Shown here piece after piece: positions 15,221-17,659 of a stretch of DNA of 50,264 nucleotides. The position numbers and the translations under genes were made by a program. The stretch spans positions 1 to 50,264 of the forward strand of contig JAPLFX010000024.1 of assembly GCA_026390445.1 (NCBI GenBank), in the 5' to 3' direction. The DNA is from Pseudomonadota bacterium. Its GTDB lineage: Bacteria; Bdellovibrionota_B; Oligoflexia; Oligoflexales; CAIYRB01. Numbering within the stretch: position 1 is the stretch's first letter; the number at the start of each line of letters is the position of its first letter. A model generated the notes under the pieces. It searched no databases. It saw only the letters and a list, made by a program, of their open reading frames with translations, and was not told where the DNA came from.

Positions 15221-15775
15221 ATGCGCGTTCAGTTAAAAGATATGACACCACGCCTGCATGTGCAGATTGACGGCCATGAGCCTTGGTTGGCCAGTCTTTA
15301 TTCTGATTTCCCAGAGCATCTATTCGATGCCTACGGCAAGGCCTCGGAACGGCCGCAGCTGAAGGCCGAGTTCGACCTCTTGCTGGAAGAGGCCGGAAGT
15401 GTGCAGGTCACAGGGACTGTGCGTTATGCGCCGGTCGTTCACTGCAGCCGTTGCGATCGACCGATTGCATGGCCGCTTTCCATTCCGCTAAGCGTGCGCT
15501 TTTTTCCTGCTGCCTTCAATAGTGCGGCTAAGGAGACCAACCTGAGTCTTGCCGATCTCGACGCCTACTACCTGGACGGCGATGAACTCGACTTGGAAAC
15601 GCTGATCAACGATGCCGTGCAGACGGCGATGCCTAGCCGCCTGGTCCCTGAAGACACCGGTACCAACGCCTGTACAGCATGCTTAGAGCCAACAGCTAGC
15701 GGCCAGGTCTACGGCCAGGGTAGCGTTGATGCCTCGCCATTTGCAGCGCTTAAAGGGTTGAAGTTGCCGAACTAG
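15221..15775 (+). CDS. yceD: YceD/DUF177 family protein
   Basis: The 184-residue protein fits the DUF177 (YceD) family, implicated in 23S rRNA accumulation and usually encoded beside rpmF. Visible are a beta-rich N-terminus, VTGTVRYAPVVHCSRCDRPI with a CxxC pair (residues 75-78), then an acidic LDLETLINDAVQTAMPSRLVPED segment typical of the family, and a second CTAC pair near 145-148. Together the two pairs look like a zinc site. AAAGGCG lies upstream of ATG 15221. It precedes rpsB by 130 bases in the same direction. The 'ceD-rpmF' linkage is broken here by strand. Confidence 0.85.
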   Translation: MRVQLKDMTPRLHVQIDGHEPWLASLYSDFPEHLFDAYGKASERPQLKAEFDLLLEEAGSVQVTGTVRYAPVVHCSRCDRPIAWPLSIPLSVRFFPAAFNSAAKETNLSLADLDAYYLDGDELDLETLINDAVQTAMPSRLVPEDTGTNACTACLEPTASGQVYGQGSVDASPFAALKGLKLPN

Positions 15776-15821
15776 ACGAGTAGGTTACTGAGGCTTCCGC
15801 GGACCCATCTGCGGTGAGCTT

Positions 15822-15827
15822 TAAAAT
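15822..15827 (+). promoter_or_regulatory. candidate -10 element of rpsB promoter
   Basis: TAAAAT (15822-15827) lies about six bases before the first pairing base of the leader pseudoknot, which would place the transcript start right at the structure. No good -35 is visible at 16-18 bases, so the call is tentative. Confidence 0.35.
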
Positions 15828-15832
15828 ACGCG

Positions 15833-15896
15833 GGTCAGCCGAAATCGAGGGTGTGCCACAACACTTTGGCTGACCGAGGATCAACCCTCGAAGGAG
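15833..15896 (+). promoter_or_regulatory. rpsB leader: H-type pseudoknot next to the Shine-Dalgarno
   Basis: Stem 1 is GGTCAGCC (15833-15840) with GGCTGACC (15868-15875), eight perfect pairs. Stem 2 is TCGAGGGT (15845-15852) with ACCCTCGA (15884-15891), eight perfect pairs. The 5' strand of stem 2 lies inside the loop of stem 1 and its partner lies outside, so the fold is an H-type pseudoknot with loops of 4, 15 and 8 bases. The last base of stem 2 is the first base of AAGGAG (15891-15896), the ribosome-binding site of rpsB (ATG 15906). Ribosomal protein S2 is known to repress its own operon through the rpsB 5' UTR in E. coli; this structure is well placed for that role. Confidence 0.8.
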
Positions 15897-15905
15897 CAAG
15901 AAGCT

Positions 15906-16730
15906 ATGTCCGTGACGATCAACATGAAAGACCTGCTGGAAGCAGGCGCCCACTACGGTCACCAGGCCCGTCGCTGGAATCCAAAGATGAAGCCTTACAT
16001 CTTTGGCGAGCGCAATGGCGTTCACATCATCGACCTACAGAAGACCGTGCGGTTGTTCAAAAGCGCCTGTGATTTCCTTGAGAAGACCACGCAAAAGGGC
16101 GGCCATGTTCTGTTTGTTGGCACCAAGCGCATGGCTCGGGACCTCGTCGCTGAAGAAGCCGCTCGTTCTGGGCAATTCTACATCAATCACCGTTGGCTCG
16201 GTGGCACGTTGACCAACTTGACGACACTGCGTCAATCGATTCACCACCTGAAGCGCATCGAGAAGATGGAAGCAGATGGTACCTTTGAAAAGCTAGTCAA
16301 GAAGGAAATCCTTGGTCTGCATCGCGAGCGCGAGAAGCTGCTGCGTAACCTGGGCGGCATTAAAGACATGCCTGGCCTACCAAGGGCTTTGTTCGTGGTC
16401 GATGCGCACAAAGAAGTCATCGCACTGACAGAGGCTAAGCGGCTTGGCATTCCAGTCGTGGCCATTGCCGATACCAACGCAAATCCAGATGGCATCGATT
16501 TCCTGATTCCTGGCAACGACGACAGCCTGAAGTCGATTCAATTGTTCATTCGCACCGCAGCCGAAGCCTGCATCGCAGGCAAGCAGCGTTCGCGCGACAA
16601 GTCAGAGCCTGACGAGAAGTTCGGCTCAGTCGAAGCCGGTAAATTCCATGACGACCAAGGACACACAGTCGCTGTTGAGAAGGCCCGCAAATTTGACCGT
16701 GATGAGTCGGGCGACGGATCCGTTCACTAA
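15906..16730 (+). CDS. rpsB: 30S ribosomal protein S2
   Basis: S2 is a late-binding small-subunit protein. The 274-residue sequence shows the family core: LLEAGAHYGHQARRWNPKM at the N-terminus, IIDLQKTV, FVGTKRMARDLV, the RWLGGTLTN segment and a C-terminal IPVVAIADTNANPDGIDF. The final 45 residues (from about 230) are a charged, Lys/Asp/Glu-rich extension beyond the E. coli protein's length. tsf follows after 26 bases, the conserved rpsB-tsf pairing. The start is fixed by AAGGAG at 15891-15896. The leader pseudoknot suggests S2 autoregulation of both genes. Confidence 0.98.
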   Translation: MSVTINMKDLLEAGAHYGHQARRWNPKMKPYIFGERNGVHIIDLQKTVRLFKSACDFLEKTTQKGGHVLFVGTKRMARDLVAEEAARSGQFYINHRWLGGTLTNLTTLRQSIHHLKRIEKMEADGTFEKLVKKEILGLHREREKLLRNLGGIKDMPGLPRALFVVDAHKEVIALTEAKRLGIPVVAIADTNANPDGIDFLIPGNDDSLKSIQLFIRTAAEACIAGKQRSRDKSEPDEKFGSVEAGKFHDDQGHTVAVEKARKFDRDESGDGSVH

Positions 16731-16756: not shown

Positions 16757-17659
16757 ATGGCGATCACCGCAGGGATGGTCAAAGAGCTGAGAGAGAAAAC
16801 CGGCGTCGGTATGATGGAGTGCAAAAAAGCGCTTACCGAGACCGATGGCGATCTGGATAAGGCGATCGTCTGGCTGCGCGAGCACGGCATGGCCCGCGCG
16901 CAAAAGAAGGAAGGCCGCGTCGCGTCTGAAGGCCTTGTTGAGGTGTTTGTCAGTCCTGACCATGCCTCGGGTGTTCTCGTCGAGCTTAACTGCGAAACTG
17001 ATTTCGTTAGTAAAAACGAAGAGTTCAAAACGTTGGCCCACGACATTGCGCAATTGGCGCTGAAGCACAAGGCCAAGCACCAAGAAGAGCTACTCGACCT
17101 CAAGATCGGCGGGCACACCGTCAAGGAGCATCTGACGCAGTTGATCGCCAAGATCGGCGAGAACATGCAGGTCCGTCGAGTTCACGTGGCTCATGCGAAC
17201 AACGGCGTGGTTGTTGGCTACTCGCACATGGGTGGCAAGATCGGCACGCTGGTCGTTCTCGAAGGCGCCAAGGGTCCTGAAGTGCTCGAAGTGGGTAAAG
17301 AAGTCGCCATGCACGTTGCCGCGGCGTCGCCACGTTTCTTAGTCGAAACTGAAGTGAATGCGACAGAGCTCGAGCAGGAAAAAGAGATCGCCCGCAAAAA
17401 ACTCGAAGACGAAGGCAAGCCAGCCGACTTGGTCGAGAAGATCTTGGTCGGTCAGATGAAGAAGTTCTTCAAGGAAGTTTGCCTTGTGGAACAGCCGTTC
17501 ATCAAAGACGACAAGATCACGGTGGCCAAGCATGTTGATAACGTCAAGAAGGGGCTGAAAATCTCCGCCTTTGGCCGTTTTCAACTCGGTGAAGGCATCG
17601 AGAAAAAGAAGGAAGACTTTGCCGCCGAGGTCGCTGCGGCGGCCAATATAGGCAAATAA
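16757..17659 (+). CDS. tsf: elongation factor Ts
   Basis: EF-Ts is the nucleotide exchange factor of EF-Tu. The N-terminal TGVGMMECKKALTE motif and a UBA-like helical bundle are followed by the core with NCETDFVSKNEEF and HVAAASPRFL, and then EQPFIKDDKITV. At 300 residues it is close to the usual size. ATG 16757 is preceded by GGAGG (16744-16748), eight bases away; an upstream in-frame TTG at 16751 is rejected. It ends at a strong terminator, which separates rpsB-tsf from pyrH-frr. Confidence 0.98.
   Translation: MAITAGMVKELREKTGVGMMECKKALTETDGDLDKAIVWLREHGMARAQKKEGRVASEGLVEVFVSPDHASGVLVELNCETDFVSKNEEFKTLAHDIAQLALKHKAKHQEELLDLKIGGHTVKEHLTQLIAKIGENMQVRRVHVAHANNGVVVGYSHMGGKIGTLVVLEGAKGPEVLEVGKEVAMHVAAASPRFLVETEVNATELEQEKEIARKKLEDEGKPADLVEKILVGQMKKFFKEVCLVEQPFIKDDKITVAKHVDNVKKGLKISAFGRFQLGEGIEKKKEDFAAEVAAAANIGK

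Follow-up and report, generated by a model that had tools for sequence, protein, structure and literature searches.

A covarying pseudoknot in the rpsB leader of an Oligoflexales bacterium, a probable compact form of the rpsB motif

The rpsB leader in the window (the whole stretch of DNA that was analysed, 50,264 nt of contig JAPLFX010000024.1) carries an RNA pseudoknot that is conserved and covaries among relatives. Judged by its topology and core letters, the element is best classed as a member of the rpsB motif, in a compact form lacking the second helix. The explanation that accounts best for the data, and which we regard as quite likely, is that this compact member is an autoregulatory leader of the S2 gene, whose S2-bound fold would lower the translation of rpsB and tsf. 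The motif is already known, and the gain lies in the compact form and in the extension of the lineage: a known autoregulatory RNA is carried, with covariation support, into an order where it goes undetected by the t44 model of Rfam. A literature search of titles and abstract openings found no paper treating the rpsB leader of this lineage.

The first-pass annotation of this DNA had described two perfect, interlocking 8-bp stems, the second of them running into the Shine-Dalgarno sequence, and both stems lie exactly where it had placed them. Read off the sequence, GGUCAGCC (15833–15840) is complementary to GGCUGACC (15868–15875), and UCGAGGGU (15845–15852) to ACCCUCGA (15884–15891), in each case over a perfect 8 bp and with the two stems interlocked in H-type order. 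The overlap is also correct, A15891 being the first A of AAGGAG (15891–15896). The first stem, P1, is longer than the 8 bp claimed, with three extra inward pairs (G15841-U15867, A15842-U15866 and A15843-U15865), and in full comprises 11 bp (15833–15843/15865–15875), one of them G-U. The loops measure 1 nt (15844), 12 nt (15853–15864) and 8 nt (15876–15883), and 14 nt separate the second stem from the rpsB ATG at 15906. The parts of the leader and the neighbouring genes are given in Table 1.

Table 1. Parts of the rpsB leader element and adjacent genes, with positions in the window.
Feature	Position	Strand	Remarks
5' flank AAUACGCG, likely 5' edge of the element	15825..15832	+	A at -8, C at -4 and -2 relative to P1
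P1, 5' strand	15833..15843	+	11 bp with 15865-15875, one G-U
Pseudoknot stem, 5' strand UCGAGGGU	15845..15852	+	Sequence and covariation in relatives
P3 position, weak 3-bp GUG/CAC hairpin only	15853..15864	+	Sequence
P1, 3' strand	15865..15875	+	Sequence
Linker L3 GAGGAUCA, 8 nt	15876..15883	+	Letters kept in the order
Pseudoknot stem, 3' strand ACCCUCGA	15884..15891	+	-22 to -15 relative to the start codon
Shine-Dalgarno AAGGAG	15891..15896	+	First A common to the pseudoknot stem
rpsB, ribosomal protein S2	15906..16730	+	TIGR01011, E 3.2e-98; PF00318
tsf, elongation factor Ts, next gene of likely operon	16757..17659	+	TIGR00116, E 2.2e-96

The gene order downstream of the element is rpsB, tsf, pyrH, frr (TIGR01011, TIGR00116, TIGR02075 and TIGR00496), and the element occupies the 5' leader of rpsB, the position that the rpsB motif requires. 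The genome also encodes an S1-like protein, an open frame of 535 aa that scores 343 bits, below the rpsA cut-off of 577 bits. A YceD-family gene (PF02620, 15221–15775) directly precedes rpsB, and between the two, ahead of the element, is a hairpin, GCUUCCGCGGACCCAUCUGCGGUGAGC (15793–15819), which may be a terminator or part of the leader. Hairpins with other letters are seemingly present, by eye, at the corresponding place in four genomes of the same genus (G001, G003, G004 and G005).

The strength of pairing in the single sequence was scored as the summed stacking energy of the best H-type stem pair ending 3–30 nt before the start. The window leader scores -40.5, a value that none of 2000 dinucleotide shuffles of the leader equalled. 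Of the 6686 overlapping segments of 120 nt into which both strands of the window were divided, 16 reached it; these represent 9 places, the leader and 8 others. The single-sequence pairing is unusual, not unique, and since such strength is met elsewhere in the window it is the comparison with relatives that decides. Of the 54 leaders studied, 36 had p≤0.05 relative to 200 shuffles of their own sequence.

These 54 leaders were cut from the 55 of 56 genomes, own included, in which S2 was detected; one genome without an S2 match (G032) and one with an S2 fragment only (G042) were left out. The element was located by two sequence anchors, a GGU with G or C as the next letter and an AAC[CU] upstream of the start, and the counts given below rest on anchored searches because a free stem search chose other stems in some leaders (e.g. 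G036, G038 and G046). Both anchors are carried by 50 of the 54 leaders of the same order and class and the element is kept in 49, an anchored leader at a contig end and without complementary strands (G012) having been dropped. Anchors were not found in the leaders of G016, G017, G018 and G055, either through loss of the element or through a wrong start. A single GGU candidate was present in 33 of the 49 leaders, and in the other 16, which had more than one, the best-pairing candidate was taken, a choice that favours pairing. Apparent wrong picks are G007, G030 and G052 in the pseudoknot-stem count, and G025 and G052 in the re-picked P1 count.

Beyond a near-invariant GGU/ACC core, the next three pairs of the pseudoknot stem are standard in 49, 47 and 46 of the 49 leaders, and the fourth and fifth in 40 and 29. 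The strands give 37 unique combinations, in which 157 of 185 cells are paired (10,000 permutations: mean 98.6, maximum 123); for the order alone the value is 124 of 150 (permutation mean 102.5, maximum 116), and at least 6 contiguous base pairs are formed in 34 of its 37 leaders. Compensatory changes, the lack of which had been put forward beforehand as evidence against the fold, were found when related rpsB leaders were compared as had been proposed. The window itself provides a case, as its GAGGGU/ACCCUC is a compensated change relative to the GAAGGU/ACCUUC common in the order, and examples of the strands of class relatives are GCUUGGU/ACCAAGC and GCCGGU/ACCGGC. For P1, the 3' strand was fixed by the linker, the letters of which anchored 46 of the 49 leaders. 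A perfect 7-nt upstream partner was present in 36 of 49 (500 shuffles: mean 4.5, maximum 11), and 3 to 6 pair types occur per position among 28 unique strand pairs. The linker letters are themselves well kept: among the 29 linkers of 8 nt in the order, G1 is found in 27, A2 in 27, G4 in 28 and A8 in all 29.

A MAFFT alignment of 15 sequences of the order has 72.1% of its cells paired, against 48.5% at most when slid. In this alignment the covariation score, the cells paired and the cells changed on both sides were above 500 of 500 shuffles and the value for pairs changed on both sides was reached by 11 of 500, while one of the five measures, further pair types, showed no excess (value reached by 270 of 500). 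By helix, the cells paired amount to 77.5% in the pseudoknot, 89.8% in P3 and 58.9% in P1, the last figure including some 5' strands that were misplaced by MAFFT. P3 covaries in the 15 leaders of the order, though it is weak in the window. There is no P2 in the window, and possible P2 hairpins were seen by eye in a few relatives.

The rpsB motif, as published in PMC2704228, consists of P1, variable P2 and P3, and a P2–P3 junction that pairs with a 3' extension after P1; it sits directly before rpsB, and P2 and P3 are possibly absent. The window shares with this description P1, a junction strand that pairs with the 3' extension, and the position in the rpsB leader. It differs in its pseudoknot stem, of 8 bp as against the five, or three in Firmicutes, given in PMC2704228, and in a P3 of just 3 bp. 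The rpsB leader of E. coli carries CACGUAUC/GAUACGUG, GGGGUG, GAGGCAUA and ACCCC, and the order of these elements is that of the window. Common to the E. coli leader (t44, RF00127) and the window are an A-N5-C flank, P1, GGUG, P1', an 8-nt linker (GAGGCAUA in E. coli, GAGGAUCA in the window) and an ACC that pairs with the GGU, and in both P1 is followed by GANG...AACC. Above P1 the E. coli leader carries a second helix and an internal loop (GGCA/G), both of them lacking in the window, and the 3' pseudoknot strand of E. coli starts 29 nt upstream of the start codon, against 22 nt in the window; the window leader also falls short of the curated cut-off of t44 (RF00127).

For a wider comparison, 81 named leaders were available, the best 80 of 587 confirmed places plus E. 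coli. Among the matches listed, a second helix above P1, beyond the internal loop, is present in 26 of 30 named members, and a GGCA/G internal loop in several gammaproteobacteria; neither structure was found above P1 in the window leader. Of the 21 order leaders scored, 10 reached -3 or better for a second helix; most of these values lie between -3 and -5 and one is -9.6, and in several of the ten the pseudoknot strand is used. A descriptor composed of the flank, a 7-bp P1, GGUG and GANG...AACC, written after both groups had been seen, has one site in the window, the rpsB leader, compared to a mean of 0.05 in shuffled windows (40 shuffles, maximum 1). Dropping the flank rule leaves this as the single window site, against 0.7 per shuffled window (maximum 3). 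The descriptor fits 30 of the 81 named leaders (best 80 of 587 plus E. coli), E. coli included, and 16 of the 54 order and class leaders, a number that rises to 21 without the flank rule, one of them (G020) far from the start.

Rfam gave no match in the window leader, and t44 (RF00127) none at E≤10 in the leader or the genome; there was likewise no Rfam match in 15 loci (own genome and relatives, of 55), while the E. coli control scored 83.5 bits with t44 (cut-off 44). A model of 15 leaders of the order, window leader included (R1), finds the window leader at E 5.3e-11 and, at E<0.01, the rpsB leader in 11 of the 39 loci outside its training set (of 54 loci), one of the 11 (G002) having the window's own leader letters. 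Under stricter filters, R1 matched at E≤0.01 in 21 of 43 genomes of the order; in 19 the match lay at rpsB, and 4 of these 19 were outside the training set. In the own genome the only significant site is the rpsB leader (E 4.4e-9; next site E 0.142). R1 matches away from rpsB were seen in G022 and G013, where they are the sole matches, and in G002, where there is an extra one. These three weak sites and the own-genome site at E 0.142 were considered as second copies of the element and treated as chance; the G022 and G002 sites and that of the own genome (G000) overlap reading frames, and in G022 the pseudoknot strands are not kept in the alignment.

A second model (R2) was made from 24 of 29 prepared named leaders (among the matches listed) of gammaproteobacterial, other proteobacterial, Firmicute and Geobacter origin. 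It misses the window leader and 53 of the 54 loci of the order and class, and the one rpsB leader that it does find, in G023 of the same order (E 0.0021), links the leaders of the order to those of other phyla. R1, run on 16 of the 81 named loci (among the matches listed), gave no convincing leader match, the best hit (E 0.29) lying elsewhere and the one overlap with a leader being at E 3.1 (L057). From the cross-misses of R1, R2 and Rfam it follows that the order has a divergent form.

The sequence just before P1 also appears to belong to the element. In 44 of the 81 named leaders (best 80 of 587 plus E. coli), G[AU]GG is immediately preceded by a P1-like stem. In the 39 named leaders with GGUG or GGUU inside (among the matches listed), A-8 is found in 36, C-4 in 36, C-2 in 37 and A-1 in 37, and CACA stands at the edge of P1 in 32, compared to 5.5% of background 10-mers. 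Both A-8 and C-2 are present in 24 of 31 order leaders (background 5.1%); the window flank, AAUACGCG, has G and not A at -1. In Firmicutes and Gammaproteobacteria (L057–L136, among the matches listed), an A-N3-C-A-C-A flank directly before P1 is nearly invariant, and such a single-stranded, A/C-rich stretch could be a candidate S1 site. An AT-rich patch at -9 to -5 before P1 was considered as the -10 box of a promoter at P1, but a conserved RNA is the preferred reading, since these letters are found again ahead of P1 in both E. coli and Firmicutes.

In E. coli, free S2, helped by S1, binds the leader and represses rpsB-tsf translation (PMC10931766), and it is probable from the present comparisons that S2 similarly feeds back on its own production via the leader studied here. 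Within the loop of the 11-bp P1, the GGU-containing strand pairs with the nucleotides immediately upstream of the Shine-Dalgarno sequence to give the H-type pseudoknot. S2 in excess over 30S subunits would bind this fold, probably together with S1 as in E. coli, and stabilise the pseudoknot; the latter would then keep the 30S subunit from loading on, or from leaving, the adjacent start site, presumably by steric means, and translation of rpsB, and through coupling that of tsf, would be lowered. As the 3' pseudoknot strand at -22 to -15 touches the Shine-Dalgarno sequence, an S2-stabilised pseudoknot could directly bar the 30S subunit or hold it in place. Repression by S2 had already been proposed in the first-pass annotation and is a prediction here as well; the part of that annotation which is upheld is the conserved, covarying pseudoknot beside the Shine-Dalgarno sequence, whose closest known relative is S2-responsive in E. 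coli. Its placement of the element at the probable transcript start was not sustained, as there are 0 sigma-70-type promoter matches in 15600–16000 and the 8 nt before P1 seem conserved; the conserved flank suggests that the transcript starts upstream of 15825.

PMC10931766 describes the way in which S2 exerts control in E. coli as unclear, given that the operator does not include the ribosome site. The compact form, whose pseudoknot is in contact with the Shine-Dalgarno sequence, offers a small system in which to examine this point. The same source indicates that a small deletion of the conserved bulge may abolish control in E. coli, and this essential bulge may be the loop that is missing in the window. 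A minimal S2 operator is conceivable for the order, though we put it forward tentatively and think it doubtful: S2, with S1 on the A/C-rich flank, would recognise only the flank, P1 and the long pseudoknot abutting the Shine-Dalgarno sequence, and would block the ribosome site directly. If true, this would set the order apart from E. coli, whose ribosome site, according to PMC10931766, is no part of the operator.

A role for the pseudoknot that involves no protein, either in setting basal initiation or in protecting the mRNA, with no S2 feedback in the lineage, would suit the compact form, from which the second helix and internal loop present in most named members (among the matches listed) are absent, as well as the failure of every model from other phyla to find the window leader and the predicted status of S2 binding here. 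We consider it improbable all the same, given that the conserved core is common to the E. coli leader, which is S2-responsive (PMC10931766), and that R1 picks out the rpsB leader as the sole significant site of the genome. Chance pairing without function might be argued from the eight other places in the window that equal the summed stem energy, but it is refuted by the covariation across the order and class and retains practically no probability.

A two-state switch has also been weighed, in which an open form, with the linker base-paired to the 3' strand of the pseudoknot (CGAGG/CCUCG in the window), is shifted to the pseudoknot by S2 or the ribosome. The local hairpin concerned appears, along with P1 and instead of the pseudoknot, in the nested minimum-free-energy fold of 15815–15925, a kind of fold that is unable to represent pseudoknots, and at least 4 bp of it are possible in 26 of the 37 leaders of the order. 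Since the other 11 are unable to form the alternative pairing, however, and the count of 22 among 33 unique cases stands against a strand-permutation mean of 19.1 (reached in 161 of 5000) and the summed length was reached in 1743 of 5000 permutations, the chance of such a switch seems slim. By eye, the E. coli linker GAGGCAUA cannot form the pairing to the same extent either. S2 feedback through a compact rpsB-motif leader is the reading that we retain.

Among class relatives, one family (f12; L039–L049 and L052) has linkers of 14–19 nt, mostly 17–19, compared to mostly 8 nt in the order of the window. These longer linkers carry GGGGUU...AACC-like letters, and mark a second subtype of the element.
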